A stretch of DNA of 64,000 nt from Methylobacterium radiodurans (lineage in GTDB: Bacteria > Pseudomonadota > Alphaproteobacteria > Rhizobiales > Beijerinckiaceae): the NCBI RefSeq assembly GCF_003173735.1, contig NZ_CP029551.1:995001-1059000 (forward strand), read 5' to 3'. The notes below the pieces were generated by a model. That model did no database searches. It had not been told where the DNA came from and saw only the letters and a program-made list of their open reading frames with translations. The translations under genes were made by a program, and so were the position numbers. Every line of letters starts with the position of its first letter. Positions within the stretch are counted from its first letter, which is position 1. Positions 265 through 17,443 of this stretch are shown piece after piece.

Positions 265-3200
265 TCAGATCGCGGCCTCCGTGGCGGTATCCGATTTCGA
301 CGAGCCGTCGATGCCGACCACGAGGTTGGGGGGGGCGATCGGGGTATCGCGAGCGCCGACCTCGACGATCGAGCCGACCAGGGGCATGTGCACGAAGAGG
401 CCGGCGCAGGCGGCCTCCGTCACGGTCGCTACCGCCCGCGCGTAGGTCGCGAGCTGAGGCGCCGCTCCGATGGCCCTTCGCTCCCACAGGTCCGCGCGGC
501 CGGGAAAGCTCTTGTGATCGATGATCGCGAAGCCGTCGCCCCAATCCACGAGCAGATCGATGCGTCCGACGATCGCCTGTGAGCCGGCGGCGGCGTGGAC
601 CGGCACCTCTCGGCGCAGGCGGGCGCCGGGAAAGCGGAGCGCCAGGAAGGACCAGAGTCGATCGGCGGCTTCCAGCAGATCCCTCGGATCGAGATGGCCG
701 GCGACGCGCCATCGCTCCAGCACGCGCGCCGCCTGGGAGCGGCGATGTTCCGGCGAAACTTCCGCCCGATCGACGGCCAGGAAGGCGTGGACGGCCTGTC
801 CCAGAAGGTCCATTTCCGGCTCGCCCGAGAGCGGTAGACGCGCCCCGAGCGAGATGCTCGCGATCGCGGTGTTGATGGTCGGGTCGACGGATCCACTCGG
901 GCGAAGCCGAAGCGGACCACGCTCCGTTCGCGGGCGAGCGATCCCTAGGAACGTCGCGTCGCCTGGCTTCCCGGCGATCGGTTCTGTCGGAATGGCGAGG
1001 AGCTCGAAGCGGGCGGGATGCTCGACGCCACCGGCCACGACGGGACGGCCTTCGTGCATGGGCAGGATGATCCGGGGATCCTCCGACGTGTCCAAGACAC
1101 CGAGCCAAGCGGCGGTCTTCGCGTTTCGCGCGAGAACCAAGTGGTCGCGCGCGCGCGTCGCGCCGACATACAACAGGCGGACGGCCTCGTCGCGAGCCTC
1201 GCGGTGGGCGTGCCGTCCGATCGCGCTCGCCGCCGCCGCCGCGTCGAGGTGGACGCCCGCCGCCTGAGCTCCGTATGGCCAGGGCCAGAAGCGGATCCAG
1301 CGACCCGCCAAGGGGGTTCGCCAGTCGAGCGTTCCCTCCACCTCGACCACGGGGGCGAACAGGCGGGACCGCGGGCCGTTCTCGAGTTGAGCGAGAACGA
1401 CGACCGGCCACTCGAGACCTTTCGCCTTGTGGTAGGTCATCACCTGGACGGCGTCCTCGTCGCTGCGCGGGCACGGGACCTTCCGGTCTCGAAGCCACGC
1501 CACGAGGCCGCCGAGGGTGGCCGGTAGGCGCAGTCGCGCGCACTCTCCCTCGTAGGAGCAGGCGACGCCACGAAACGCCTCGAGAGCCTTCAGCCGGGCC
1601 GCCGCGTGTCCCCAGCGGCAGGCGAGATCCACCACGCCCGTCGACAGGATCACGGCATCGACGATCTCGCATGGGGTCATGCCGAGCTGACGCTCGCGCA
1701 GATCCGCGAGCGTCGACGCGAAGGGGAGCGCGGCTCGCAGCGCCGCGTCCGGATCGTCGGCGCCCAACGCCTCGAGCCAGCCACGCGGCTCGTCCTCCCC
1801 ACCCACGAGGCGAACGAGTTCGGCGAGGGAGAGGCGATCGCCCGGGTCGGCCGTCCAGCGCAACGCCGCCATCGCGAGTTCGACCTCCGGGGTCGCGAAC
1901 AGATCGCCGCGCTCGACCGCGACCCGGACCCCGCGCTCGGTGAGGGCGGAGGCGAGATCCTCCACGTCGGCGTTGCCGCGGCAGAGGACGGCGATGTCGG
2001 AGGCTCGCAGGTCGCGCGCGACACGGTCCGAACCCGAGCGAACCGGCCAGCGCGACGGGTCGGCCAAGGCCGCTGCGATGCCGCCGGCGAGGCTCGCGCT
2101 CCGATCCGCCTTTGTCTTTCCGTTCGCGTGCCAGACGGTCAGGGGCGGGCGCGACAGGTCGGCGGCGTCACCCACGCAGTCCGTGAACCGCGAGGCCTCC
2201 TCTGGAAGGCCCATGCGTTCGAACGCGGGGAGGAAGGCGTCGTTGACGAAGGCACAGATGCCCGGCCGGCTCCGCCACGACTTCGACAGAACGGTCGAGG
2301 AGCCGCCGGTGCCGGCCGCGATGCCGCGCGCGGCCGCGAGCGTGAGGTTCGCGTCGGTGTTACGGAATCCGTAGATCGCCTGCTTCGGATCGCCGACCCA
2401 GACGCTGTGCGTGGCGATGCGCGCGAGTTCCGAGAAGATGGCGACCTGCAGCGGGCTCGCGTCCTGCACCTCGTCGATCAGCACGACGGCGATGTTCTCG
2501 CGAAGCCGTTCCTGGGTTTCAGGGCGCCGCAGGATTTCCAGAGCGAGCGCTTCCTGATCGGTGAAGTCGAGAAGCCCGCGCTCGGCCTTGTAGGCTTGGA
2601 AGGCGGCGGTGGCTCGGGCGGCGCAGTCGAAGACGAGACGGATGAACTGGTCGAGGTCGCCCCGCAGGCGCGGATGACGCGGATGCGCCGCCGCCGCGCG
2701 CGCGACGTCGATGAAGAAGGGCGCGTCTGCCTTGGACGTGTTCGGCTTGCTCAGCTTGGCCCAGAGCGACCATGGCGGGAGTTCGCCCCGGTCGAACAGG
2801 CCGGCGGCGACCTTTACCGCGCTCGCGGCCTTGGCTCCCTCGCCTTTGAGAGACCGGCCGTCCAAGGCCTCTCGCGCCTCGCGAACGGCCTCGCGGAGAG
2901 CCGCGTCCAGGACCGCGTCCGACAGATCCGGATCCGCCTCCGGAAGAAGGGCGAGCAGACTGTCGCACGACCGATCCGCCGAGCGGTTCAGGTCCGTCGG
3001 GTCGATCCCGTTGGCGCGAGCCAGTTCGATGACGCGTCGAACGAGGACGCGCCAGTCCGTGTCCTGATCGGACAGGCCCAGGCGCTCTGCGAGCGCGTTC
3101 AGCGCCGGCGCGAAACGGGTCAGCGTGTCGTCGGCGGCGGTCGCGAAGAGCAGGGCAGCGCTGTCGTCGGGAACGACTTCGCCTCCGGGTGGGCGACCCA

Positions 3201-3489
3201 GGTCGAACGCGAAGTCCTCGACCAGGCGTCCGCAGACCGCGTTGACCGTGCCCATGCGCGCGCCGAGCAGCGCGATGGCATCCTCGCTCCGACCCTGATC
3301 GATCAGGTGCGCGCGCGCGCGCTCGACGAGTTCCTCGGCGGCCTTCTTCGTGAACGTCGTGGCGAGGATGCGGTCCGGCACGATGCCGGCGTCGAGGAAC
3401 CGCGTGAGCTGGCCGACCAGGGTCGTGGTCTTGCCGGTGCCGGCCGAGGCCAGAGTGGTATCGACGCGATTGAGGGGAAGCGCGCTCAT
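265..3489 (-). CDS. UvrD/AddA-like helicase-nuclease
   Basis: A 1074-residue superfamily 1 DNA helicase with a C-terminal RecB-type nuclease. The Walker A motif ASAGTGKTTTLV lies at about residues 14-25, the helicase motif VLIDEVQDAS and later UvrD motifs (VMTYHKAKGLEWPVV, LLYVGATRARDHLVLA) follow in order, and GRIDLLV...AIIDHKS near residues 976-994 supplies the PD-(D/E)XK nuclease residues. It is slightly shorter than typical AddA (about 1150-1200). The start lies 7 bases after the stop of the AddB-like gene, so the two form an operon and probably a complex that resects or degrades DNA ends. The operon is divergent from the Shango genes. Whether it is the cell's general AddAB or a defence-dedicated pair cannot be told from sequence; the location favours the latter. 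Confidence 0.85.
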   Translation of the reverse strand: MSALPLNRVDTTLASAGTGKTTTLVGQLTRFLDAGIVPDRILATTFTKKAAEELVERARAHLIDQGRSEDAIALLGARMGTVNAVCGRLVEDFAFDLGRPPGGEVVPDDSAALLFATAADDTLTRFAPALNALAERLGLSDQDTDWRVLVRRVIELARANGIDPTDLNRSADRSCDSLLALLPEADPDLSDAVLDAALREAVREAREALDGRSLKGEGAKAASAVKVAAGLFDRGELPPWSLWAKLSKPNTSKADAPFFIDVARAAAAHPRHPRLRGDLDQFIRLVFDCAARATAAFQAYKAERGLLDFTDQEALALEILRRPETQERLRENIAVVLIDEVQDASPLQVAIFSELARIATHSVWVGDPKQAIYGFRNTDANLTLAAARGIAAGTGGSSTVLSKSWRSRPGICAFVNDAFLPAFERMGLPEEASRFTDCVGDAADLSRPPLTVWHANGKTKADRSASLAGGIAAALADPSRWPVRSGSDRVARDLRASDIAVLCRGNADVEDLASALTERGVRVAVERGDLFATPEVELAMAALRWTADPGDRLSLAELVRLVGGEDEPRGWLEALGADDPDAALRAALPFASTLADLRERQLGMTPCEIVDAVILSTGVVDLACRWGHAAARLKALEAFRGVACSYEGECARLRLPATLGGLVAWLRDRKVPCPRSDEDAVQVMTYHKAKGLEWPVVVLAQLENGPRSRLFAPVVEVEGTLDWRTPLAGRWIRFWPWPYGAQAAGVHLDAAAAASAIGRHAHREARDEAVRLLYVGATRARDHLVLARNAKTAAWLGVLDTSEDPRIILPMHEGRPVVAGGVEHPARFELLAIPTEPIAGKPGDATFLGIARPRTERGPLRLRPSGSVDPTINTAIASISLGARLPLSGEPEMDLLGQAVHAFLAVDRAEVSPEHRRSQAARVLERWRVAGHLDPRDLLEAADRLWSFLALRFPGARLRREVPVHAAAGSQAIVGRIDLLVDWGDGFAIIDHKSFPGRADLWERRAIGAAPQLATYARAVATVTEAACAGLFVHMPLVGSIVEVGARDTPIAPPNLVVGIDGSSKSDTATEAAI

Positions 3490-3496
3490 GGGGGCC

Positions 3497-6220
3497 TTAT
3501 CCTACGGTCACGGAACGGCAGAGGCGGGTCATGTCGCAGTACGCGCAGACCCTGGGATTGGGCGCGAAGGCGAGATCCTCGGGGAGATGTTCGTCCGCGC
3601 CGGAGACGCCCGCCGCGATCCCACGTCCGGATCCGGCCAGCCGCGTGAGCCGGTCGCCGTCCCGCGCGATGGCGTCCCACGTATCCGCCAAGCCCCGCGA
3701 GACGGCGACTTCCTCGTGGGCGAGCGGTGAGCCTGCCTCGGCGAGCAGGCGCCGCTGGCGCAGCAGGAAGTACCCGGCCGCCGCCCCGGTCCCCGCAGGT
3801 TCGACGAGACGGCTGTACGTGGCGAGTTGGATCGCCCGCCCGTCCGCGAGTTTGGCGTGATGCGCGTTCGCTCCGTTCTCCGTCCATTTCAGATCGACGA
3901 TGGCTCGCTCGCCGTCCGGACCACGCACCACGAGATCGATCCGGCTGGCGACTTTCACGACACCGAAGTCGTGCTCGTGCTCGACTTCCAATCCATCGAC
4001 CGCGAAGCGTCCCCGCGCCAGGATGGCCGAGAGGCTCGCCAACGCGTCCGGCACCCGTTGGCGCGCGAAGGCCAACTCACGGGCGTACCCCGGAAGAAGC
4101 AGTGGCGCCGCGATCCGTGGCAGGAGATCGTCCAGCGCCGTCACCGCGCGGGTTCTCACGACTTCGGCGTCCGGGATCTCGCCGGGCCGGAAGGCGGCCT
4201 GCGCGACGGCGTGCGCGAGATTGCCGAAGAGGCGCTCGGGCTTCGGGATCTCGCGCCCGCCCGCGGCCTTCAGGCCCGCGACGTGACGCAGGACCCAGCG
4301 CAACTGGCAGGTGAGAAGATCCTCGAGAGACGTCGCGCTCTCGCGCCGCTCGACATCGCGGGCGCGCGTCGCGAGGCTGGGTGGCAGATCCCAGGCGGAT
4401 CGCGCCCGGGGAAGGTCGATGGTGACGTTCGACGCGCGCACCACCTCCCGTGCGGCCATGGGGACGCGCTCCTCGACGAAGAGACGCTCGGCGACGAACC
4501 GAACCGATGCCGCGTTCGACGGCTGATCGAACAGGGGGTGCAGTTGTTGGCTGAAGGGATGCGGCGGTGGCGCCGTCCCACGATCCGAAGCTGAGCGGAC
4601 GAGCACGAGGGAGCGCGCGTTCGACGCCGCAGCCCGCCAATGCGCCGCCTCCCGCCGGCTCGCCGCTTGGGGGCGCTCCGGACAGCAGTCGGCCGCAGTG
4701 AGCGCGCCGCGCTCTCGCTCGCTCCAGGGAAAGCGCTGCGCGGAGGACCCGGTGCCGTCGAACCCCCACCAGACCACCCGGTGCGCGGTGCCCCAGAGAG
4801 CGCCCGGGTTGGCGATGGCGCGTACCCGTCCCTCCTGCGCGTGGCAGCTCGGGTCCGGCAGGCCGTCCGCGACGGCTTGGTCGATCATCCGGTCGATCTG
4901 TAGCGCGGTGACCGGTGAGTGTCCGAGAGCGTCCAACGCGGTGATCAGCGCGCGGGCCGCGCCGACGACGCACAGCAGCAGGGGATCGCGTCGTCCGGCG
5001 TCGAGTTCCACCGCCCAGTCGAGAACGCGTCGGCAGAGCGCGATCGCGTCCGGCGCGGCCATGCCCGTCGTCCGATCGTACTGGCCGAGGCTCGTCCAGG
5101 CTCGCCAGCGTGCGAGTGTTCGATCGACCCGCGCCGCCGCGCGCCCTGGCGTGTCGTCGGCGTCCCGCGAGACTTCGTCACGCAGCCGCGCCTCGATGCG
5201 TTCCCAGGCGCGTCGCCAAGCGGACCCGCCGATGCCAGGTTCCTCGGCGAGCGCGCGCGCCAGTATTCGGGCCGCCCAACGGGGGATGGGCGGTCGAGGC
5301 AGAAGCAGGAGTTCGGACAGCTTGGCCGGATCCATCGGTGTCCAAGCCACTGCGAAGCTGAGCGACAGGACCTGGAGAGCTCCCCGGTAGGAGGACGATG
5401 GCGAGAGCCCCAGCCGAGGCAGGCCGCGCCGGACGAGCGCCTGATCGAGAAGCGCGCTGTCGCCATCGGGCACGATCACCACCGTGTCGCCCGGCGCGTC
5501 CGCCTCGATCTCGGAGGCCAGCCACTCGGCGACGCATTCGGCGGCGGAGGTGGCGGACGCCGCCGAGACGTCACAGACCGTTCCGTCTCCGGCCAGCGGC
5601 GTCCGTTGTCCCGTGAGCAGGAACAGGTGCAGTCGACCGATATCGGAGTCGACGTCGGCCGGCGCGGGCGTCGCCGCGGGTCGCGCGATCGTCCCGGCGC
5701 CCTCGAGGGTTCGGACGAGCCTGCGCCAGCCGGGCGCGAGCGCCTCGATATCCTCGACGCATTCGAGAAGATCGACGTCGACGGGGCCGCCCGTCTCGAT
5801 CGCCGTGATCACCTCGCGCAGGAGATCGGCCCGCCCGCCGGGGAGCTCGGGTCCGGCGCGCTCGGCGGCGGCGAGGTCGGCGAGGCGCGCGGGAGGATCG
5901 AAGAGGCGGTCGGGAGTCCAACCGGCCTCGATCAGCGCGTCCCGCCAGGACAGAAGCTGTCGGGCCGTCGCCCAGCCGTCCGCCGCGAGAGAAGCCGTCC
6001 AGAACCGTGGTGTGTCGCGAGCCGCGGCTTCCAACTTCCTTTGCCAGGTCGCGATGCGGACGACCGGGGGGATCTGCGGACCGCCGAGACCGAGGCGCGT
6101 CGCCAGAATGTCGAGAAGCCCGGCCGGTCCGACGACGGCCCCGTCGATACAACCCGTCGAGCCGCCGGGATGCTCGGGATAGGCACGACCGTCGGCGGTC
6201 GTCGCGAAGACGAGGTGCAT
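3497..6220 (-). CDS. AddB-like PD-(D/E)XK nuclease with Fe-S cysteines
   Basis: A 907-residue partner of the downstream UvrD/AddA-like gene. The C-terminal third carries a RecB-family nuclease core (SRIDLVV with D762; AIVDLK with D776 and K778). Four cysteines, C638 in TCQLRW and C892, C895 and C901 in VCAYCDMTRLC, match the 4Fe-4S staple that surrounds the nuclease in AddB proteins. The N-terminal two thirds are a weakly conserved, probably inactivated helicase-like region; I see no intact Walker A motif. It begins 264 bases from the start of the TerB-protein gene on the other strand, sharing a divergent promoter region. Annotated in databases usually just as PD-(D/E)XK nuclease family protein. 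Confidence 0.8.
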   Translation of the reverse strand: MHLVFATTADGRAYPEHPGGSTGCIDGAVVGPAGLLDILATRLGLGGPQIPPVVRIATWQRKLEAAARDTPRFWTASLAADGWATARQLLSWRDALIEAGWTPDRLFDPPARLADLAAAERAGPELPGGRADLLREVITAIETGGPVDVDLLECVEDIEALAPGWRRLVRTLEGAGTIARPAATPAPADVDSDIGRLHLFLLTGQRTPLAGDGTVCDVSAASATSAAECVAEWLASEIEADAPGDTVVIVPDGDSALLDQALVRRGLPRLGLSPSSSYRGALQVLSLSFAVAWTPMDPAKLSELLLLPRPPIPRWAARILARALAEEPGIGGSAWRRAWERIEARLRDEVSRDADDTPGRAAARVDRTLARWRAWTSLGQYDRTTGMAAPDAIALCRRVLDWAVELDAGRRDPLLLCVVGAARALITALDALGHSPVTALQIDRMIDQAVADGLPDPSCHAQEGRVRAIANPGALWGTAHRVVWWGFDGTGSSAQRFPWSERERGALTAADCCPERPQAASRREAAHWRAAASNARSLVLVRSASDRGTAPPPHPFSQQLHPLFDQPSNAASVRFVAERLFVEERVPMAAREVVRASNVTIDLPRARSAWDLPPSLATRARDVERRESATSLEDLLTCQLRWVLRHVAGLKAAGGREIPKPERLFGNLAHAVAQAAFRPGEIPDAEVVRTRAVTALDDLLPRIAAPLLLPGYARELAFARQRVPDALASLSAILARGRFAVDGLEVEHEHDFGVVKVASRIDLVVRGPDGERAIVDLKWTENGANAHHAKLADGRAIQLATYSRLVEPAGTGAAAGYFLLRQRRLLAEAGSPLAHEEVAVSRGLADTWDAIARDGDRLTRLAGSGRGIAAGVSGADEHLPEDLAFAPNPRVCAYCDMTRLCRSVTVG

Positions 6221-6384
6221 GCGCGCTCCATTCCCAGGGGGGCGACCTCAAATAGGGCACGCCAGGTGAGGGCACGGATCAGATGCAATCTACGGTTAAT
6301 GAAACGTTGCGCCTCGAGGCTTGTGCACAGCGAGCGTGATACGCGGACGGATACCGGAGGCCGGGGACCGGTACTCACTTCAGC

Positions 6385-6414
6385 TTGACGGTTGCCGCCA
6401 GCTGTCTGTTAACG
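6385..6414 (+). promoter_or_regulatory. Candidate sigma-70 promoter for the Shango operon
   Basis: TTGACG at 6385-6390 and TTAACG at 6409-6414 are separated by 18 bases, about 70 bases upstream of the first plus-strand start. The -35 box is good, the -10 box is weak. It lies in the 264-base region between two divergent operons and is the best promoter-like pair I can see there. Confidence 0.35.
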
Positions 6415-6484
6415 TCTGGTTGCGGTCAGGGGTGCTTCCCCCTCCGGGGCAACCGGACGCGATCGACGAGCTGCGGGGTGCCTC

Positions 6485-9046
6485 ATGGCGCGGCGGAAAG
6501 CGAAGGGCGGCACGGGCGCTTGGATCGTCCTCGCGGGGTTGACGATCCCGGCGCTCGGCGTCGGTGCTCATGCCGTCGGTGACGCTTGGCCATATGTGCT
6601 GATGGGACTGGGCGGTGTCGGATGCGTCTGGGGGCTCGCGCGACGGAAGGCCGAGGCTGCCTCGGCGGCGGTGTTGCCGCTTCAGAGCCCCCTGGCGCCA
6701 ATCGATCTGGAGACGATGCGCCGTTCCGCGAGTTTCGTCTCCAAGCCATCACAACCCGCGACGGTCGAGCGTGAGCCTGACTTCGGTGTGTTGAAAAGTG
6801 CCATGCCGGGCGCGGCGGCGAGCGCTGCGCCGACGGTGCCGCTCGCGCAGGAGCCGGAATTTCACATCACGGCCATCGTCGAACAGGCCTCCGTCGCTCC
6901 GCCTCGAACGGAGCGGCGCAAACCTGGCCCCTCTTACGGAACGGCTCGCTGGATCCCAACGGGCGAGCCCGTGACGATCCACGATCTGACGATCTCGTCC
7001 GGCCTCATCTACGTCGGGGCCAAGCTCGGCGACGATCCCTGGCGGTCGGAGAACTGCCTGATCGATCCGAGCCTTCCAGTCGCTCGCGCCGGAAAGGGTT
7101 CGACGGACGGCATGCCGTATTGGGCACGCTACGACGCCGTAACACCCGCGATCCGGCGCGCCTATCTCGATTGGCTCGCTGCGGACCGTACCGCTGCGGA
7201 CGTCCAGATCGGACTGGTCTTCCTCTTCTTCTATGGCCTCGAATATCGGCTGTTCAAGGAAGCCGTCCTGTCCGACGGGCCCCTGATCGTCGCCGAGGTG
7301 GAGCGTCTGCGCGCGCGACACGGAGAGAACTCGTCCTTCCAGGGCTATGCGAACCGCTTTCTGGAGGCGGCCCGCCTCGTCCTTCCGGGCGTGTCCGAGA
7401 CGCGCCCGGACATCGTACTCGATCAGCCTATCCGGAACTTCGAGTTGCCTCTCGACGTCCGGGTCTGGCTCGGTCGCAAGCTCGCCGCCGGCGAAACCCT
7501 GGATGCCGACGACGCGCTGCTGTGGCTGGCCACGCTGCCCGATCGCGGCTTCCGGACACCCGTCACGCGCTGCCCGGAAATCTTTCGCTCCCTCTGGCGC
7601 CTTCGGTTCGCCGAGCGGTATCCGGCCGGGCTCAAGGTCAATCCACCCAAAAGCCGCCTCAAGGCGACGTATCGCGCCGCGAGCGGCACCTTCGAGGTGC
7701 CGCTGCGGAGCGCGCACCCGGATCTGCCCGATATCGGATCCCTGACCGGCCCGGTCAGGAAGCTCCGTGACCTCGTCGAGGCCTGCACGGCGGAGCTCGA
7801 CGGATACAGTCGCTTCATCGGCAGGCGTCCCGACGCGCGATCCGGAATCGAGGCGGCTCTCCTCCTGCCGGACGATCTCGCCGTGGCGGGTACGGCTTGG
7901 GAGCTCGTGCGGGCGCGCGTCGACACCCTGATGGCGGACCGGGAAATCGCTTCCGTCCGGCTTTCCGAGCTCTTCACGATCGCGGGATTGTCGCTCCTGT
8001 CGGTCGGACGTGTGCCGCAAGCGCCGATGCTGCAACTCGCGCAGGTTCTCGATCGCATCGACGTCGCGTTCGAACCCGATCGCCGCTTCGGTGGTCCGCT
8101 CCCGGACGCCTCGTCGATCGTCTGCCTCTTCCGCGGCGCCAAGGGCGCGCCAGTCGACAGCGAGCGACCGGAATACCGGACGTATCGCGATCTGATCGAC
8201 ATCGCCTGTCTCGCCGCGGCAGCGGACGGAGCCGTCGAGCCGGCGGAAACCGAAACCGTGCTCGCGACCTTGCGCGCCTCGACGGCTCTGCTGCCGATGG
8301 AGCAGGCTCGCTTGGCGGCGTACGCGCTGTCGATCGCCCAGGATCCGCCGAAGTGGCAGGCCGTGCTGAAGCGAGCCGCCGCTCGCTCCGAGGCCGAGCG
8401 CCAGGGCTTCGCCGACGCGGCCCTGGCCGCGGTCATGGCCGACGGCCATGCGACACCTGCGGAGGTGAAGTTCCTGGAGCGGCTGCACAAGGCGCTCGAC
8501 CTACCGACGGACGCGATCTACGCCGGCATCCATCGAGGCGGCGGGCCGACTGCCGATACGGATAACGGCGCGACCGCGCGACCCCGAGCTTTCCCGAACG
8601 TCTCGCAGGCGCCGTCCGGCGCCGTCACGATCGACATCGCGCGTCTGGAGCGGATCCGACGCGAGACGCAGGCCGTATCGAGTCTCCTCTCGGACATCTT
8701 CATCGACGACACCTCATCCGTCGTACCCGCTCTCGCGCCGACGGACGCTTCGACGCCTGTCGTGCCTGACCCGGAAGACCATCTCTCGGCTCCCGGGACG
8801 TTCCAGGGCCTCGATCCCGCCCATGCGGAGCTTCTCGCCAACCTCCTGGTCCTGGCGGAGCCCATCGGCCGCGAGGTCTTCGAGCGAGAGGCGCGCCTCC
8901 GCCGGCTTTTGCCGGACGGTGCTATGGAGACCATCAACGAGTGGTCCTTCGACCGCTTCGGCGACGCTCTTCTCGAGGGCGAGGAAGACCTCTGCGTGGC
9001 CGCCCACTTACGCGATCAACTCATCGAACTCGAAGCCGCCGCCTGA
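6485..9046 (+). CDS. sngA: TerB-domain protein of Shango (SngA)
   Basis: An 853-residue protein. Residues about 12-30 and 36-52 are hydrophobic and look like two membrane helices, followed by a low-complexity linker. A TerB-N-like domain follows from about residue 135 (GTARWIPTGEPVTIHDLTIS and an aromatic FLFFYGLEYRLF segment). A TerB domain (DLIDIACLAAAADGAVEPAE ... AAVMADGHATPAEVKFLERL, two metal-binding-like acidic helical pairs) is near residues 560-690, and a TerB-C-like region ends the protein. This is the first of three tightly packed genes (3-base gap to the ATPase gene), matching the Shango anti-phage system: TerB protein, ATPase, helicase. TerB-family proteins are thought to act as membrane-associated sensors or scaffolds; the exact role in Shango is not settled. 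The start at 6485 has only a weak ribosome binding site. Confidence 0.85.
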   Translation: MARRKAKGGTGAWIVLAGLTIPALGVGAHAVGDAWPYVLMGLGGVGCVWGLARRKAEAASAAVLPLQSPLAPIDLETMRRSASFVSKPSQPATVEREPDFGVLKSAMPGAAASAAPTVPLAQEPEFHITAIVEQASVAPPRTERRKPGPSYGTARWIPTGEPVTIHDLTISSGLIYVGAKLGDDPWRSENCLIDPSLPVARAGKGSTDGMPYWARYDAVTPAIRRAYLDWLAADRTAADVQIGLVFLFFYGLEYRLFKEAVLSDGPLIVAEVERLRARHGENSSFQGYANRFLEAARLVLPGVSETRPDIVLDQPIRNFELPLDVRVWLGRKLAAGETLDADDALLWLATLPDRGFRTPVTRCPEIFRSLWRLRFAERYPAGLKVNPPKSRLKATYRAASGTFEVPLRSAHPDLPDIGSLTGPVRKLRDLVEACTAELDGYSRFIGRRPDARSGIEAALLLPDDLAVAGTAWELVRARVDTLMADREIASVRLSELFTIAGLSLLSVGRVPQAPMLQLAQVLDRIDVAFEPDRRFGGPLPDASSIVCLFRGAKGAPVDSERPEYRTYRDLIDIACLAAAADGAVEPAETETVLATLRASTALLPMEQARLAAYALSIAQDPPKWQAVLKRAAARSEAERQGFADAALAAVMADGHATPAEVKFLERLHKALDLPTDAIYAGIHRGGGPTADTDNGATARPRAFPNVSQAPSGAVTIDIARLERIRRETQAVSSLLSDIFIDDTSSVVPALAPTDASTPVVPDPEDHLSAPGTFQGLDPAHAELLANLLVLAEPIGREVFEREARLRRLLPDGAMETINEWSFDRFGDALLEGEEDLCVAAHLRDQLIELEAAA

Positions 9047-9049
9047 TCC

Positions 9050-10375
9050 ATGCCACCGACCCCCGTGATCCGACCTCGCGACCGCGACACCATCCTCCAG
9101 GCCCTGTCCGCCGGCGTCGTCCCGCGCTCGGGTCTGCGTCATATCCAGGTCGGACGCGCGGCCGAAATCGGAGCCCTGGTGCGTGATATCGATCGCATCG
9201 GCGACGCCGGCGCAGCGATCCGGTTCGTGATCGGCGAGTACGGCGCCGGGAAGACCTTCTTCCTCAACCTGGTCCGCCTCATCGCCCTCGAACGCAAGCT
9301 CGTGACGGTCCATGCGGATCTCGCTCCCGATCGACGCATCCACGCGACGAGCGGACAAGCGCGCGGCCTCTACGCCGAGGCCCTGCGTAACATGGCGACG
9401 CGGACCAAGCCGGATGGTGGCGCGCTCGGCAGCGTGGTCGAGCGCTTCGTGACCGACGCCGTAAAGGAAGCGCAGCAAGCGCGCGAAGCCGTCGAGCACG
9501 CTATCGACCGCCGGCTCGCGCCTCTGCAGGAAGAGGTCGGAGGCTACGACTACGCCGTCGTTCTCAAGGCCTATTGGCGAGGGAGCGAGGACGGCAACGA
9601 GGCCTTGAAGGCCGCCGCATTGCGCTGGCTTCGCGGGGAGTATTCGACCCGCACGGAGGCGCGACAAGCGCTCGGCGTTCGCACGATCATCGACGACGAC
9701 ACCGTCTACGACGCGCTCAAGTTGCTCGCGGCGTTCGTTCGATTGGCCGGCTACGGCGGTCTGTTCGTCGTCTTCGACGAGCTCGTCAACCTGTACAAGC
9801 TTCAGAGCGCGCAGGCGCGCAATCAGAATTTCGAGCAGATCCTGCGCATCCTGAACGACGTGCTCCAGGGCAACGTTCGCGGGCTCGGTTTCGCCCTCGG
9901 AGGCACACCCGAGTTTCTGCTCGACACCCGGCGTGGCCTCTACAGCTATCAGGCCCTCCAGAGTCGCCTCGCCGAGAACAGCTTCGCCAGAGGCGGGCTG
10001 GTCGACCTCTCGGGGCCGGTGATCCGGCTGCAGAATCTCACGCCGGAGGACATGCTGATCCTGCTGACGAATATCCGGACGGTGTTCGCTTCGGGTGACA
10101 CCGCGAAGCATCTCGTCCCCGACGAGGCGCTCGCCAGCTTCATGGAGCATTGCAACCGCCGCATCGGCGAGGCCTACTTCCGCACCCCGCGCAACACGAT
10201 CCGTGCCTTCGTGCAACTGCTCGCGGTGCTGGAGCAGAACCCGACAGCCGATTGGCGAAACCTGCTGGGTGAGGTCGAGGTCGGCGCGGACGGACCCGGC
10301 GATGCCGATGGGGGGGACGCCGCCCCCGATTCGACGACAGGCCGTGACGATGATCTCGTCGACCTCCGTCTCTGA
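9050..10375 (+). CDS. sngB: BrxD-like P-loop ATPase of Shango (SngB)
   Basis: A 441-residue ATPase with Walker A GEYGAGKT at residues 62-69 and Walker B LFVVFDEL at about 236-243. The family is the one used for BrxD in BREX systems (DUF2791-type P-loop ATPases), which has the same FVIGEYGAGKTFFL start and the later LGGTPEFL and RTPRNTIRAF segments, both visible here. No other BREX core gene (PglX, PglZ, BrxC) is nearby, so the Shango assignment fits better. The last 26 bases overlap the helicase start, which implies translational coupling. Predicted to be cytoplasmic and to power or gate the helicase. Confidence 0.85.
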   Translation: MPPTPVIRPRDRDTILQALSAGVVPRSGLRHIQVGRAAEIGALVRDIDRIGDAGAAIRFVIGEYGAGKTFFLNLVRLIALERKLVTVHADLAPDRRIHATSGQARGLYAEALRNMATRTKPDGGALGSVVERFVTDAVKEAQQAREAVEHAIDRRLAPLQEEVGGYDYAVVLKAYWRGSEDGNEALKAAALRWLRGEYSTRTEARQALGVRTIIDDDTVYDALKLLAAFVRLAGYGGLFVVFDELVNLYKLQSAQARNQNFEQILRILNDVLQGNVRGLGFALGGTPEFLLDTRRGLYSYQALQSRLAENSFARGGLVDLSGPVIRLQNLTPEDMLILLTNIRTVFASGDTAKHLVPDEALASFMEHCNRRIGEAYFRTPRNTIRAFVQLLAVLEQNPTADWRNLLGEVEVGADGPGDADGGDAAPDSTTGRDDDLVDLRL

Positions 10376-12650
10376 TACGCGGCCGCGGGACGCGTTCGAT
10401 CGCTTGGCCCCGGCCGTTCGCTCCTGGATCCGAGAGCAGGGGTGGGACGGGCTCCGGGACATCCAGACACAGGCGACCTTCGCCATATTGGACGAGGATC
10501 GGGACGTCCTGATCGCCGCAGCGACGGCCGCCGGCAAGACCGAGGCGGCCTTTCTGCCCGTCCTCACCAAGGTCGCCGGACGTGCCGAGCCTGGTCTGTC
10601 CGTCCTCTACGTCAGTCCGCTCAAGGCGCTGATCAACGATCAGCACCGGCGTTTGGACCAGCTCTGCGAGCGCATGGAGATCCCCCTCGTGCGCTGGCAC
10701 GGCGACGCTCCTGCGTCCGCCAAGGCGCGGATGCTGAAGCGACCCTCCGGGATCGCACTGATCACGCCGGAGTCGATCGAGGCGCTCTTCATCCGCAAAC
10801 CCGCCGAGGCCCGACGGCTCCTCGGTCGTCTCGACGCCATCTTGATCGACGAGTTGCACGCGTTCCTGGCCGGCGCGCGAGGTTTGCATCTCGCTTCGCT
10901 GCTGAAGCGCATCGATGCCATCGCCGGACGTCGCGCGCGCCGGATCGGACTATCGGCGACGATCGGCGATCCCGAGATGGCCGCGGCGTGGCTGTGCCCG
11001 CGCGAGCCCGCCCAGGTTCTCAGGCTTTCCTCGGACGCGACCGGAATGGACTTGCGTCTGCAGATCCGGGGTTATCTGGAGCCCTCGCGTCCAGCCGCCT
11101 CGGATCGGAGATCGAGCGCCACGGATGGCGAACTCGCACCCGCGCTCGCGGGGATCACCGACCATCTGTTCGAGACCCTGCGTGGCGAGAACAACCTCGT
11201 GTTCGGTGGCTCTCGGCAAACGGTCGAGACAGTGGCGGATCAGCTGCGGCTGAAGGCCGAGCGGGCTTGCGCGCCGAACGAGTTCTTCCCTCACCACGGC
11301 AATCTCTCGAAGGAGCTGCGCGAGGAACTGGAAGTGCGCCTGAAGGACGGAAGCCTTCCGACCACGGCCGTCTGCACGTCGACCTTGGAGCTCGGTATCG
11401 ACATCGGGTCCGTGCGATCCGTCGCGCTGATCGGGGCGCCGCGCTCTCTGGCGTCCCTACGTCAGAGGTTGGGACGCAGCGGCAGGCGGCGTGGCGTGCC
11501 GGCCATTCTTCGCGTGTATGTCCGGGAAGCCCCCGTGGAGAAGGCTAACAGCCTCCGAGACGTGTTGCGCCTCGACACCGTGCGATCGGTCGCGGCGATC
11601 CGCCTCCTCGGCGAACGCTTCGTGGAGCCACCGCCCGCGAGCGATCCCGCGTTGGCGACGGCGCTGCTCCATCAGACGCTCTCGATCATCGCGGAGCGCG
11701 GCGGCGCGCGCGCCGATACGATCTTCGGACTACTCGGAGGCTCTGGACCGTACGCCTCTGTCACGTCGGCGGACTTCGTCGAGCTGCTTCGTGGCGCCGC
11801 TCACGAGCGAGTCGGCCTCATCGAGCAGGCCCCCGATGGAACGCTGCTGTTGGGAGAGCGCGGCGAGCACCTGGTGCAATCGCGCGAGTTCTACGCGCTC
11901 TTCGAGAGCGAGGCGGAGTGGCGCCTGCTCCACGGAGGGCGGCCGCTGGGGACGATACCGCTCGGCAACGTCATCACCGTCGGCGGCCTCGTCGTTTTCG
12001 CCGGGCGCCGGTGGTCCGTCGAGGCGGTCGACGAGCGTGCCCGTGTCTTGCAGGTGGCTCCCCATAGCGGTGGCACGCTCCCGAAATTCGAAGGCGCCAG
12101 CGTGGAGCCGGCCCACGACCGGTTGGTGGCCGAAATGCGCCGCGTCCTCAAGACCGATGCCGCACCGCCACCCTATCTCGATCCGCACGCGGCCGCGTTC
12201 GTCACGGAGGGCCGGGACGCCTACAAGCGCCTCGGTTTGAATCGGATGCCCCTTCTCGACACCGGCCAGGACGTCCACCTGATGGCATGGCGTGGAGATA
12301 TCGCATGTGGTGTCCTCGCGGCGGCCTTCACGTCGCTCGGCTTCCAAGCCGAGCCGAACGATGTCGGCGTGACGCTGCTGAAAGCCGATTCGATGTCGGT
12401 CCGCTCGGGGCTGGCAAGGATCGCGCGGTTCGAAACGGCCGATCTGGAGCGTCTCGCCGCGCAAGTGCGGGATCCGCGCTCGGCGAAGCTCGATGCCTAC
12501 GTGCCGGAGGCGATCCTGCGACGGTTCTGGTGCCGCCGCCACGCCGCGGAAGTCGCCGATGTTCCGAGAATGGCCGCCCTCCTGGCGACCCACCGAGTCG
12601 CGGGCGCCCTACCGGAAGCATCCGCCTTGATCCCGGACGGGTATGCATAG
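10350..12650 (+). CDS. sngC: DEAD/DEAH-box helicase of Shango (SngC)
   Basis: A 766-residue superfamily 2 helicase of the BrxHI/Lhr-like type. Walker A is AATAAGKTE at residues 57-65, the DEAH-position box is DELH at 167-170, and motif III is GLSATIG near residue 200. The second RecA lobe has VCTSTLELGIDIGSV and LRQRLGRSGRR. The frame stays open upstream into sngB, but the family starts close to the ATG at 10350; a GTG at 10344 is the alternative. Only the ATG start gives a normal length and a short 26-base overlap with sngB. It completes the three-gene Shango set and ends just before a hairpin. Confidence 0.85.
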   Translation: MISSTSVSDTRPRDAFDRLAPAVRSWIREQGWDGLRDIQTQATFAILDEDRDVLIAAATAAGKTEAAFLPVLTKVAGRAEPGLSVLYVSPLKALINDQHRRLDQLCERMEIPLVRWHGDAPASAKARMLKRPSGIALITPESIEALFIRKPAEARRLLGRLDAILIDELHAFLAGARGLHLASLLKRIDAIAGRRARRIGLSATIGDPEMAAAWLCPREPAQVLRLSSDATGMDLRLQIRGYLEPSRPAASDRRSSATDGELAPALAGITDHLFETLRGENNLVFGGSRQTVETVADQLRLKAERACAPNEFFPHHGNLSKELREELEVRLKDGSLPTTAVCTSTLELGIDIGSVRSVALIGAPRSLASLRQRLGRSGRRRGVPAILRVYVREAPVEKANSLRDVLRLDTVRSVAAIRLLGERFVEPPPASDPALATALLHQTLSIIAERGGARADTIFGLLGGSGPYASVTSADFVELLRGAAHERVGLIEQAPDGTLLLGERGEHLVQSREFYALFESEAEWRLLHGGRPLGTIPLGNVITVGGLVVFAGRRWSVEAVDERARVLQVAPHSGGTLPKFEGASVEPAHDRLVAEMRRVLKTDAAPPPYLDPHAAAFVTEGRDAYKRLGLNRMPLLDTGQDVHLMAWRGDIACGVLAAAFTSLGFQAEPNDVGVTLLKADSMSVRSGLARIARFETADLERLAAQVRDPRSAKLDAYVPEAILRRFWCRRHAAEVADVPRMAALLATHRVAGALPEASALIPDGYA

Positions 12651-12744: not shown

Positions 12745-13626
12745 ATGATGCATCTCAGGCCAATCCCCTGTCCGAATCCCGAATGCGGGAAGTCCCTTTC
12801 CTTCGCCGCGACGACATGCGTCGAGTGCGGGCATCAGGCCGTGGGCTATCCGAACGTACGGTACGCGAACGATCCCGCGGAAGTGGCCGCGCTCGACACG
12901 CGTGTTCGGGAAGCGTTCGAGGAAGCCGATAGGGGCGGCAGCGCCGACCGGCTCGCGAGATTTCGGGAGGTCGCGAAGACGACCTGCGCCGTGACCGTCA
13001 TGAGCATCACGGATATGCGGATGCTCCTGAGTGAAAATCGATTGTGGGTGAGCTTCTACAAGCAAGTCAACGGAGCGGGAAGTCGTCAGTCCGAATGGAA
13101 CAAGTGGGACTTTTCGCGGGGAAGCAACGATCAGAAGGTAAATCCGCAGTACTCCGATCACATCAACTATGCGGCGTTGTCGCTCGGAGATTTCGGGGCC
13201 GGCTGGTATGGCGGATGCCATGCGAAGCTGGTCGGCGATCGGATATCGACGCGAGCCAGCGTGTTCTGGGAGAATCCGTTCGTGTTCCTGAAGAACACGC
13301 ACGTACCTCCCGACGCGTTGGTTCCGCCTGGTTACCGAGCCTCGTGGGAGCGCCGATCCGATTTGGCTGTCGCGAAGTTGCACCCGAAAATCGGTTCGAG
13401 CACTGCGGAGGCCGAGTTTCCAGGCATCGTGCTGGAGCATGATCCCAGCCGGGGCGATACCGACTTCATCGAGGTGCACATCTATGGAGCTGTCGGTCAG
13501 TCGGCGATTGCGCAGGTCAGCGTGGACACCTCGCGCATGGACGAGGATGACGCGCTGGAATGGTCGAGCCTGAAGCGCCGGCTGGATGCGGCCGGCATAC
13601 TGGTTAGGGATGTCGCCAATGCTTGA
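12745..13626 (+). CDS. Zinc-ribbon protein of unknown function
   Basis: A 293-residue protein I do not recognise. The N-terminus has two CxxxxC/CxxC-like knuckles (CPNPEC near residues 9-14 and CVEC near 26-29, then GH), a typical four-cysteine zinc ribbon. The rest is a mixed alpha/beta sequence rich in Trp, Tyr and Asp with no motif I can name. There is no signal peptide or membrane helix. Its last 8 bases overlap the start of the next gene, so the two are translationally coupled and likely work together. It sits 95 bases after the Shango helicase on the same strand. ATG at 12748 is an equally possible start. Confidence 0.7.
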
Positions 13627-15457
13627 GCGTAATCTCATATCCGGGCATCTCGGCTTGTTGGCTGCGCCCGAGGGCGACGGCGTGGCTCTCTACAAGGTCG
13701 ACGGATCCAAGGTTCCCGATGTCTCGACGCGGGAGGCGCTGAGGATCTTCCGGTCCGCCGACGACGTGATTGAGGCGCCGATCGGCGATTTGTCCGACAG
13801 TCTGAGGGTTCTGGCGTGCGAACATGCCAAGAAGCGCGCGCTCCGCATGGTCCTGCTGATCCTCGATAAGGACGAGGACACCCGAATCATGGATCGGGCC
13901 GCCCGGAGATTCGAGGAACTCGTCCAAAGCCCGGAAGTCTCCGTGTTCGTCAAGAACCGTCTGTATTCCCAGGTTCTGCCGAGCGATGCAGAGCATGAAC
14001 GCGTTCGAAGCGCCGTCCGGGATTTGCGAGCCGCCTCTCTCATCATCGACGCGGTGTTTCGGTCGCAAGATAGGATTCGCATTCATAGATCGGCGTTCGA
14101 TGCGGCGGTTGTCGATGCGCCTCCGGATATGGAGAACGCAACTCTCCGACGCGCGGTCGAGAAGGGCATCTTCCGCAAGCTCGTCGAAGAGGGGCGAGCG
14201 GCGTCGCGTCGTGTGCTTGACCAGTTTCGGCAGGAAAACTCAGACATCGCTAGTATTGACGTGACCTCCGACCGATGGTTCAGGAACATTGATGTGCTGG
14301 ATGTCGCCCTTCGTGGCCATCGGCGGATCGACGTTTCCGAGGCCGACGCGACAAGCGAAACCGAACTTCGACGCGGCCTGGAGGCTGGAGCCGGCACTTG
14401 GGCGGTGTCGATGCGGCAATTGCTGGAGGCCGGCGCGCACTTCGGAAAACGAGCTCACAGCTGGAATCCGAAGATGCAGCCTTACATCTTCGGCACCCGC
14501 AACGACATCCACATCATCGACCTGGCCCAGACGGCGCCTGCGATGCATCGGGCTCTCCAGGCCGTCAGCGACACCGTGGCCCGCGGCGGTCGCGTGCTGT
14601 TCGTCGGCACGAAGCGCCAAGCCGCCGACACGATCGCCGACGCCGCCAAGCGCTCGGCCCAGTACTACGTCAACTCCCGCTGGCTCGGCGGCATGCTGAC
14701 TAACTGGAAGACCATCTCGGGCTCGATCGCGCGCCTGCGCGAGGTCTCCGAGACGCTCGAGACCGGCGGCTCCGGCCTCACCGGGGAGGAGCGCCTGATG
14801 CTGTCCCGTGAGAAGGACAAGCTTGAGAAGGCGCTCGGCGGCATCAAGGACATGGGCGGCGTGCCGGACCTGCTGTTCGTGATCGACACCAACAAGGAGC
14901 GAGTGGCGATCAGGGAGGCGAACCGCCTCAACATTCCGGTGGCCGCTATCGTCGACACCAACTGCAACCCGGACGGCATCACCCACATCGTCCCGGCCAG
15001 CGCGAACGCTGGACGCGCCATCGCGCTCTACTGCGATCTCATCGCCCGCGCTGCGATCGACGGCATCTGGCGCGCCCAGGGCTGGTTGGGGAGCGACCCT
15101 GGCGCCTCCGAGGAGCCGATGGCCGAGGAGCTGCCGGCCAGCGAGGAGTTCCCAGTCACCTTCTCGTTCGACCGAGCCGGCAAAATGCTGCCTGCCCAGT
15201 CGACCGCGCGCTTCGAGCTGCTCGCCGCCCCACGCGGCGCGCCCGACGATCTGACCAAGATCGACGGCATCGGTCCGCAGATCGCGCGGAGGCTCAACGA
15301 CGCCGGCATCTACCACTACTGGCAGATCGCCGCGATGACCGAGGACGACGTCGCCGAGCTCGGTCACGACCTCGCCGGCCGCATGGCCCGCGACGATTGG
15401 GGCGAGGCTTCGAGGGGCCTGCTGCACGAATCCATACGCGGAGCGGCGACGGGCTGA
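13619..15457 (+). CDS. Unknown domain fused to a ribosomal protein S2-like domain
   Basis: A 612-residue protein in two parts. Residues 1 to about 260 are an unfamiliar mostly helical sequence (includes [20 protein letters not shown]). From residue 265 ([20 protein letters not shown]) to the end it is a ribosomal protein S2 of the long Methylobacterium type, including [54 protein letters not shown] and the C-terminal helix-hairpin-helix-like tail [16 protein letters not shown]. Ordinary S2 has HFGHxxHRWNP; here GH is replaced by GK and R by S. The usual partner gene tsf is not downstream. The start at 13619 overlaps the previous stop by 8 bases. The S2 part has much more housekeeping-like codon use than the N-terminal part, suggesting a recent in-frame acquisition of an rpsB copy. 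A separate S2-only product could start at the ATG at 14411. Confidence 0.75.
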
Positions 15458-16075: not shown

Positions 16076-17443
16076 TCAAGCCTCCTGTATTGCGCCGTCG
16101 GTCGACAGGTCGGATCGGCGGCTCTCGGGCACAGGATCGGCATCCGCGTGAAAGAGACGGCCGGCGGTTTCGGGCGTCAGGAGTGCTACGATCAAGGCTA
16201 GGCCTGCCACTGCGGTGATGTAAATCGCCGGCGCCAAGCGGTCTCCGCTCGCCGCGATCAGCAGAGTCGCGACGAACGGAGCCGTTCCGCCGAAGACGGC
16301 GTAGGCGATGTTGTAGGTGATTGCCGAAGCCGTGTAGCGCACTCTGGTCGGGAATGCCTCGCAGAGCAGCACGGCCGTCACGACGTTTGCGGCGACGGCG
16401 CCGACGGATAGCAGGATCTGGGCGGAGAGCGCGGATCCGAGTGTGCCGTTCGAAGCGAGGATGTACGCGGGAACCGAGAGGCCGCCGAGCAGTAGCGCGG
16501 AGGCGACCATCGTCGGCCGGCGTCCGACCCGGTCGCAGATTCGGCCGAGGAATGGGGCCAGCGCGGCTGCGAATGTCAGTGCCAGGACGTTCGAGAGTAG
16601 GACTTGCGCAGGCTGCATTCCCACGACGGTTCTTAGGAACGTGGTCATATAAGTGGAGAAGATGTAGAAGGACAATGCCGTTAGGCTGATGTAGGCGCCC
16701 AAACGCAGCATGGGGACGCACTGCTCGCGCATGGTCTGGCGCAGAGGAGCGTGGGCGGTCGCCGGACCGTCGAGTACCTTCTGGAACAGCGGGCTCTCGT
16801 CCAGACGGCGGCGGATGTAGACCGCGACGAGGCCGAGCGGAGCCGCGAGCAGAAAGGGCACGCGCCAGCCCCAGGCGTTCATCTCCTCGTTCGACAAACC
16901 GACGGTCAGCAGGTAGGAGACGAGTCCGGCGAGGGCGAAGGAAGCGAACGTAGCCGCCGGCATCCAGCTCGAGTAACGCGAGCGCTGATCGTCAGGCGCG
17001 TGCTCGATGACGTACGTGACCGCGCCCGCGTACTCACCGCCAGCCGAGAAGCCCTGAAGACAGCGGGCGAGGGTGAGTAGGATCGGTGCCCAGATGCCGA
17101 TGGCATGGTAGTTGGGCAGGAGCCCGATCGCTGCAGTCGCGATCGACATCAGGAGTACGGTGAGCGCCAGCACCTTTTTGCGCCCCAGACGATCGCCCAT
17201 CACGCCGAAATAGGCGCCCCCGAAGGGACGAAGCGCGAAGGCGACCGCGAAGATCGCGAAGGTCTGGAGCAAGCCCGCGACGCGGTCGCCCTCGGGAAAG
17301 AACGTAACGGCGATGACTGGCGCCATGAAACCGTAGATCGCGAAATCGAACCATTCGATCACCGTTCCCGCGACCGCGGCCATCGTGATCTTGCGTAGGG
17401 TCGCGGGTTCTACCGCGGATGCATCCGTCGTGTGCTCTGACAT
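16076..17443 (-). CDS. MHS-family MFS transporter
   Basis: A 455-residue, 12-helix major facilitator of the metabolite:proton symporter branch (relatives of ShiA, KgtP, ProP). Visible signatures are TVIEWFDFAIYG in helix 1, RPFGGAYFGVMGDRLGRKKV in the helix 2-3 loop, and GFSAGGEYAGA. The gene lies between the N-carbamoylsarcosine amidase gene and the hydantoinase remnant on the same strand, so it probably imports a substrate of that route such as N-methylhydantoin, creatinine or sarcosine; the substrate is inference. The length and helices look complete. Confidence 0.85.
   Translation of the reverse strand: MSEHTTDASAVEPATLRKITMAAVAGTVIEWFDFAIYGFMAPVIAVTFFPEGDRVAGLLQTFAIFAVAFALRPFGGAYFGVMGDRLGRKKVLALTVLLMSIATAAIGLLPNYHAIGIWAPILLTLARCLQGFSAGGEYAGAVTYVIEHAPDDQRSRYSSWMPAATFASFALAGLVSYLLTVGLSNEEMNAWGWRVPFLLAAPLGLVAVYIRRRLDESPLFQKVLDGPATAHAPLRQTMREQCVPMLRLGAYISLTALSFYIFSTYMTTFLRTVVGMQPAQVLLSNVLALTFAAALAPFLGRICDRVGRRPTMVASALLLGGLSVPAYILASNGTLGSALSAQILLSVGAVAANVVTAVLLCEAFPTRVRYTASAITYNIAYAVFGGTAPFVATLLIAASGDRLAPAIYITAVAGLALIVALLTPETAGRLFHADADPVPESRRSDLSTDGAIQEA

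Follow-up and report, generated by a model that had tools for sequence, protein, structure and literature searches.

A ribosomal protein S2 domain fused to the partner of a predicted ADP-ribosyltransferase in Methylobacterium radiodurans and on a Rhizobium leguminosarum plasmid

In the DarTG system the mark is reversed by DarG, a macrodomain protein, and effector ADP-ribosyltransferases (ARTs) of the SopF and OspC-CopC type act in eukaryotic cells. Plant NLR receptors can contain integrated decoys, in which an immune regulator has incorporated a copy of one of the cell's own proteins. In CmdTAC, an ART toxin is held by an antitoxin and is freed by a phage protein (PMC11618068). The locus analyzed here lies in a stretch of 64,000 nucleotides (the window) and consists of two overlapping genes: the first encodes a predicted ART, and the second a fusion of an N-terminal domain (N-domain) to a whole ribosomal protein S2. 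In its proposed mode of action (ART toxin, regulator, phage trigger and translation stop) it would resemble CmdTAC, whereas CmdTAC has three genes, a SecB-like chaperone and a CmdT of the diphtheria-toxin type (PMC11618068), and here two genes are seen and the predicted fold is SopF/DarT-like. DarTG has a macrodomain antitoxin; by contrast, the partner here combines an unrelated, mostly helical N-domain with TPR repeats or S2, and the ART carries a zinc ribbon. Among the matches listed from Pfam scans of the two S2-type and 23 other partners there was no macrodomain; the families were S2, HHH or of TPR type, and some partners had none. The first gene has no detectable sequence relation to the SopF and OspC-CopC effectors (0 PDB sequences at E ≤ 10). 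Like uS2 (rpsB), the fusion has a full S2 domain and a long C-terminal extension, but here S2 is fused, departs from residues that all 71 native rows share, and is followed by minus-strand genes. The likeness to plant NLR decoys is the copy of a cellular protein within a regulator, whereas this one is bacterial, involves no NLR and has a decoy role that is only proposed.

Features of the locus and of its upstream neighbours (window coordinates)
Feature	Position	Strand	Evidence
SngA (Shango), neighbour, outside the pair	6485..9046	+	PADLOC SngA, E 3e-82
SngB (Shango), neighbour	9050..10375	+	PADLOC SngB, E 3.9e-176
Frame holding SngC, match from residue 99, neighbour	10095..12650	+	PADLOC SngC, E 2.1e-238
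First gene of the pair: zinc-ribbon protein (~292 aa) of predicted ADP-ribosyltransferase fold	12748..13626	+	predicted fold
Partner N-domain (residues 1 to ~235), also present in TPR-type partners	13619..14323	+	HMMs, AF2 pLDDT 89.8
Linker, about 27 residues, low model confidence	14324..14404	+	pLDDT 37-56
Mosaic ribosomal protein S2 domain with changes in its zinc pocket and S1-docking segment	14405..15157	+	PF00318, tree, codon analysis, residue changes
Long-type S2 C-terminal extension, HHH-like stretch	15158..15454	+	Pfam, NF008966, DNA alignment

The second gene (13619-15457, +) is one uninterrupted open frame of 612 codons that ends in TGA. An earlier, sequence-only reading had described it as an S2 domain joined without a stop to an unfamiliar N-terminal domain, and this description holds: residues 268-482 match Pfam Ribosomal_S2 (PF00318; E 5.2e-86, 287.8 bits against a cut-off of 26.1), and residues 263-604 match the NCBIfam long-form S2 model NF008966 (571 bits against a cut-off of 526). 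An HHH-type Pfam match at residues 543-582 (1.1e-5) falls slightly below its cut-off. We regard this anatomy as firm. The extent of the parts needed adjustment: residues 1 to ~230 do form a separate domain in HMM comparisons and in the AF2 model, and S2 homology, which covers residues ~264-603, begins at ~14408-14411, at about S2 codon 5. The N-domain was modeled with confidence as a small beta part followed by helices, without a PDB match or a recognised fold, and the residues that join it to S2 (231-262) have block-mean pLDDT values of 37-56. What had been missed is that this domain usually carries TPR repeats in its relatives.

S2 is an essential ribosomal protein, and the genome keeps a normal rpsB elsewhere (C1:1671610-1672638, −) as its single further S2 gene. 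The fused S2 is 81% identical to it in protein and 88% in DNA (881/1004), with DNA similarity running from the ATG of 'SMRQ' (window 14411) to 15405 and the C-terminal extension differing from the native one at its end. The nucleotide comparison confirmed that the fused S2 is not a plain copy, since 12% of the aligned bases differ; the proposed change in the GHxxHRW segment is also present (FGKRAHSW, compared with FGHQSHRW in the genome's own rpsB). Because the assembly is a single contig of 5.54 Mb and the two copies differ to this degree, the fused copy is not an assembly chimera of native rpsB. A very recent duplication of the native gene is ruled out by a dS of 0.22.

The zinc-ribbon gene in front, which the sequence-only reading had taken to be coupled to the fusion, is indeed so: its end overlaps the start of the fusion by 8 nt, and the same pair recurs on a plasmid (below). 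That reading had passed over its predicted fold, which on comparison of the structural model is SopF/DarT-like and points to an ART. As to possible catalytic residues, E243 (in FIEV), R170, R198 and K211 are conserved in the alignment of these proteins, and R125 is nearly so.

The second locus with this architecture (L070) lies on the 901-kb plasmid pRL9b4 of Rhizobium leguminosarum bv. trifolii 9B. Here the ART gene occupies positions 7977-8834 and its partner, of 510 aa, positions 8821-10353, so that the partner starts within the end of the ART gene with an overlap of 14 nt. A tblastn search with the window fusion matched residues 3 to 503 (E 9e-113), and pRL9b4 was the sole record among 59 plasmid records with at least 80% coverage of the fusion. 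An N-domain HMM built from 20 relatives, with the window and L070 excluded, recovered both frames (1.6e-32 for the window and 7.3e-22 for L070) and had no further match among 860 frames from the window, L070, L002 and L071. The record annotates only 9610-10353, beginning inside the longer frame, as rpsB; such fusions are thus hidden by annotation under a plain 'rpsB' label. Considering that the same N-domain–S2 protein follows a homologous ART on the plasmid of an unrelated bacterium, the fusion appears to be a device that recurs and not the product of an accident. The extra tethered S2 that had been noticed in the window is therefore found in two genera, a chance fusion by duplication is disfavoured, and the junction is not unique to this genome. 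It is also extremely improbable that the frame reflects a private rearrangement or a sequencing or assembly error at about 14400, given the locus in another genus and the 12% DNA difference between the copies.

Among the matches listed, no further N-domain–S2 fusion appeared in 101 genomes of the order or in 394 Rhizobiaceae genomes; S2 itself was matched in 388 of the latter, the best listed match (481.6 bits) covering residues 257-496 only. All 111 genomes of the genus had an S2 match, and among the matches listed, which take in the hits of S2 size, only this genome had two, the second matches of the others being C-terminal HHH pieces. The N-domain was found in two of the 111, namely this genome and, weakly (25%, E 5.7e-4), G027. 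As a separate observation, the 130-kb conjugative plasmid pAtS4b of Allorhizobium ampelinum (NC_011991.1, L071) carries at ~5980-6920 an unfused open rpsB with a long C-terminal tail and GHQTGRW in place of GHQTHRW; rpsB is absent from the PLSDB gene table for this plasmid.

Relatives of the pair were collected by scanning 84,980 species genomes with a pattern (21 loci), from viral contigs (two loci) and from plasmids (one record among 72,556). A family sample of 199 genomes had the ART in five, including this genome, and so added four; an order sample of 397 genomes gave two, both known already. In a class sample of 327 there were, apart from this genome, two weak matches confined to the zinc ribbon. 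First-look candidates were scored less densely in the order and class samples (6 and 7 per genome) than in the family sample (12), so ARTs may have been missed there. We examined 28 loci, of which 27 are distinct since L048 and L064 are the same pair; L067 was left out. Wherever the partner could be read, in 26 of 26 distinct related loci, it had the N-domain, at 48.6 to 197.4 bits in leave-one-out HMM searches (114 bits for the window); the contig of L042 stops ahead of the partner. By Pfam, TPR repeats follow the N-domain in 20 of the 27 loci, with complete partners in 16 (L037-L041, L044-L046, L053, L055, L056, L063-L065, L068 and L069) and contig-cut ones in four (L043, L047, L052 and L054, the last with TPR matches below the Pfam cut-offs). 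Three (L049-L051) have no Pfam domain after the N-domain, and S2 follows it in one, on pRL9b4; the TPR count lacks L042, L057, whose ART frame is broken, and L066, whose partner runs off the contig. By domain homology, these comparisons place the S2 fusion second in a two-gene module, made up of a predicted ART and its partner, that occurs in many bacteria, and show that the C-terminal module of the partner is an array of TPR repeats in most relatives and a whole S2 in one lineage.

Record titles place the family loci in Pseudomonadota, Acidobacteriota, Nitrospirota, Bacteroidota, Ignavibacteriota, Planctomycetota and Zixiibacteriota. The searches of PADLOC 2023, Pfam and NCBIfam gave only weak zinc-ribbon, LmuB or TPR matches and none to a model of ART or N-domain type, and no description of the module was found in the literature searched, a search that most subscription papers lie outside. 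The finding points to a two-gene family of predicted ARTs, spread over several phyla, that went unmatched by ART-type or N-domain models in these searches. In L050 (9814-10935) and L051 (898-2184), the C-terminal part of the partners (373 and 428 aa) has no Pfam match and is possibly a third kind of sensor module.

The trees of the three parts differ. In the N-domain tree (24 rows) the window and L070 fusions are sisters (support 100/99), and in the ART tree (56 rows) the window, L070 and P0003-P0010 form one clade (100/98), within which L070 sits on a long branch and is not the nearest neighbour of the window. P0003-P0010 and P0011 are known from the ART gene alone, so that the S2-type members read number two. 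The S2 tree comprised 75 rows (73 native or plasmid rpsB genes, including 30 of the 111 genus genes, and the two fused copies). Here the window S2 falls inside the genus (100/96) and the R. leguminosarum fused S2 groups with the Rhizobiaceae rpsB genes L105 and L106 (99/88); the starred branches require two origins, and the fused S2s come together in 0% of 200 bootstrap trees. As judged from this tree, each fused S2 was shown to resemble the rpsB of its own host's family. Apart from these groupings, we observed that the five aligned ARTs of the S2 clade (window, L070, P0003, P0006 and P0008) have WYG[GS]CH and VFW.NP in common, whereas six other aligned ARTs mostly have YG without CH, and VFE.N. 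The two motifs together are a possible signature for further S2-type loci.

Codon analysis revealed that both fused S2s are mosaics, with a synonymously old 5′ end and a younger body. Between the window S2 and the genome's own rpsB, synonymous differences amounted to 15.5 of 30 sites in codons 1-45 and 11.0 of 112 in codons 46-195 (Fisher p 9.9e-7); for the R. leguminosarum S2 and L105 the figures were 13.3 of 28 and 16.5 of 108 (p 0.0012). The resulting 5′/body ratio of 5.34 for the window exceeds the maximum of 3.91 among 432 native pairs of the genus (432 of 435, those with pS above 0.03 in codons 46-195), and that of 3.09 for R. leguminosarum exceeds the maximum of 2.54 among 66 Rhizobiaceae pairs, although a p value below 1e-3 was also reached by one native pair of each set. 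The simplest account is that the fusion arose once, long ago, and that in each lineage a resident rpsB afterwards overwrote its S2 body; alternatively, S2 may have been captured twice at the same joint. The dN/dS of the window S2 was 0.25, 0.23, 0.18 and 0.27 against its four nearest natives (0.27 being the genome's own rpsB) and 0.14-0.27 over the 12 native rows listed, while that of the R. leguminosarum S2 was 0.16-0.17 against its two nearest natives and 0.10-0.23 over 12 rows listed. The native pairs listed gave 0.04-0.10 and 0.02-0.13. By these ratios, constraint on the fused S2 is looser, yet present.

Ninety-eight positions are invariant in the 71 native S2 rows. The window S2 keeps 89 of them and alters nine (H18K, Q19R, R22S, V47A, K131G, K132E, N203S, D204A and D205N, E. 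coli numbering), whereas the R. leguminosarum S2 alters three (Q19S, H21K and R22H). Two changed positions are common to both (hypergeometric p 0.022). With the threshold at 95% conservation, the two copies change 10 and 6 of 131 positions and have three of these in common, namely 19, 22 and 37 (p 0.0058); at 90% they change 12 and 7 of 150 and again have three in common (p 0.012). When native rows were left out one at a time, one row departed from 6 positions that the others keep invariant (mean 0.31); many changes are therefore not in themselves peculiar to the fusions. In E. coli S2, H18, D188, D204 and D205 bind zinc and, with N203, contact S1 (PMC4288201, PMC10123108); PMC10123108 also gives His18 as conserved in all 68,244 Pfam sequences. 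At H18, D188, N203, D204 and D205 the window has K, D, S, A and N, with four of the five replaced, whereas the R. leguminosarum fused S2 retains all five. Both keep M6, R7, H15, F16, F32 and R208, among them the main S1 dock. As Byrgazov et al. report (PMC4288201), S1 binds mainly by stacking on S2 Phe32, the salt bridges being minor, and in E. coli charge reversal on the S1 side of these bridges has a minor effect on S1 binding. Since the main dock is kept and charge reversal has so little effect, we do not claim a loss of S1 binding.

A link of the pair to translation is the likeliest theme. We give a probability of roughly 40% to a reading in which the ART is a toxin and the partner its regulator; the S2 part of the partner, a mimic of the host protein, would act as bait or pseudosubstrate with a tie to the ribosome or S1. 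The ART would ADP-ribosylate a translation component; the N-domain would bind and restrain it, which is guesswork since this domain has no recognised fold; and the S2 domain, as long as it resembles the host's S2, would make the ART's state depend on the S2/S1/30S surface. A phage attack on that surface, or the loss of a labile partner, might then free the ART and stop translation in an abortive defence, and in the TPR-type relatives the TPR array would be the sensor for another ligand. Several observations are consistent with this reading: the architecture and the gene overlap recur (8 nt in the window, 14 nt on pRL9b4); the N-domain is common to TPR partners and the ART fold is predicted; one lineage by N-domain (100/99) and ART (100/98) carries two host-matched S2 bodies; neither frame has a stop, and dN/dS against the nearest natives lies above most native pairs listed (0.02-0.13) and below 1; the nearly invariant positions 19, 22 and 37 are altered in both (p 0.006-0.022, depending on the threshold); the settings are mobile or defensive (Shango, the phage tail genes at L068, a large plasmid); and CmdTAC (PMC11618068) is a precedent. 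However, it depends on two S2-type members, the host-matching may have no adaptive meaning and come from passive gene conversion of paralogues that are 88% identical, relaxed constraint would also explain the raised dN/dS, which overlaps the native range when more distant natives are compared, and defence-gene neighbours elsewhere are sparse (1 of 10 proteins from six loci). If it is true, a bacterial conflict system has taken a core ribosomal protein into service for recognition and draws fresh sequence for it from the host gene, which would be a bacterial counterpart to the decoy domains of plant immunity. It is possible, if doubtful, that the S2 domain is a living decoy, repeatedly refreshed from host rpsB and so always like the local ribosome, with a few residues around the S1-docking segment kept different, which senses or blocks an attack on that surface while remaining unmodified and is not built into ribosomes.

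Other roles for S2 share part of this evidence. If S2 were a pseudosubstrate antitoxin in the strict sense, which is a special case of the bait or pseudosubstrate reading and overlaps it in probability, the ART would target residues 18-22 of native S2 (GHQ-HR), and the altered fused S2, being unmodifiable, would block the active site and so have to follow the host's S2 elsewhere. Q19 and R22 are fixed in 71 of 71 native rows and are replaced in the fusions (Q19R/S, R22S/H), R22 being the alphaproteobacterial residue at E. coli Y22, and enzymes among the nearest ART folds of the first gene modify Gln or Arg side chains. We nevertheless consider it unlikely: there are two fusions only, p is 0.022 at the fully invariant positions, and the changes at residues 18-22 may reflect more time, since the segment belongs to the synonymously old part. 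Instead of restraining the ART, S2 might aim it, docking on S1 or on S2-free 30S and carrying the enzyme to mRNA, S1 or the 30S platform. This proposal, which we hold to be somewhat unlikely, is favoured by the ~27-residue linker of low confidence ahead of S2 and by the retention of M6, R7, H15, F16, F32 and R208, with Phe32 stacking the main contribution to S1 binding and salt bridges a minor one (PMC4288201, as cited above); the window copy, however, is without H18, N203, D204 and D205 of the S1-facing pocket, and retention of the dock is weak evidence for an adaptor because most invariant positions are kept anyway (89/98 in the window). Finally, a captured rpsB could have replaced the TPR part and now be drifting, passively homogenised by the native gene, with S2 having no role. 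The raised dN/dS and the rarity of the fusion (1 of 111 genus genomes and 0 of 394 sampled Rhizobiaceae genomes, among the matches listed) fit such a by-product, but two lineages keep long open frames, the gene overlap and an open ART with conserved motifs, dN/dS is well below 1 and a distinct ART sub-clade accompanies S2, which makes it improbable.

The pair lies next to Shango (SngA, SngB and SngC), a system of TerB-like, ATPase and helicase genes (PMC10250203). This position had suggested a functional tie; yet none of 21 related loci has a SngA, SngB or SngC relative in its flanking DNA (up to 9 kb, less on short contigs), and the idea that the pair is a Shango component was rejected on this count. 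Upstream of Shango and divergent from it, 265-6220 (−) holds two large frames, a 1074-aa UvrD/AddA-like helicase with GajB-type helicase matches and a 907-aa frame that is AddB-like by eye and has no PADLOC match. Long coding-looking frames lie on the minus strand 3′ of 15457, for example one of 455 aa at 16076-17443. At the other loci, a defence candidate was found for one of the 10 neighbour proteins scanned at six loci, a match to the candidate defence family HEC-05 (E 7.5e-45) at 6731-8866 of L040, upstream of a TPR-type pair. In L068, a contig from a viral collection (IMGVR_UViG_3300048927_000734), a TPR-type pair at 4735-8055 adjoins phage tail genes (tape measure and tail protein) and is located on a prophage-like element.
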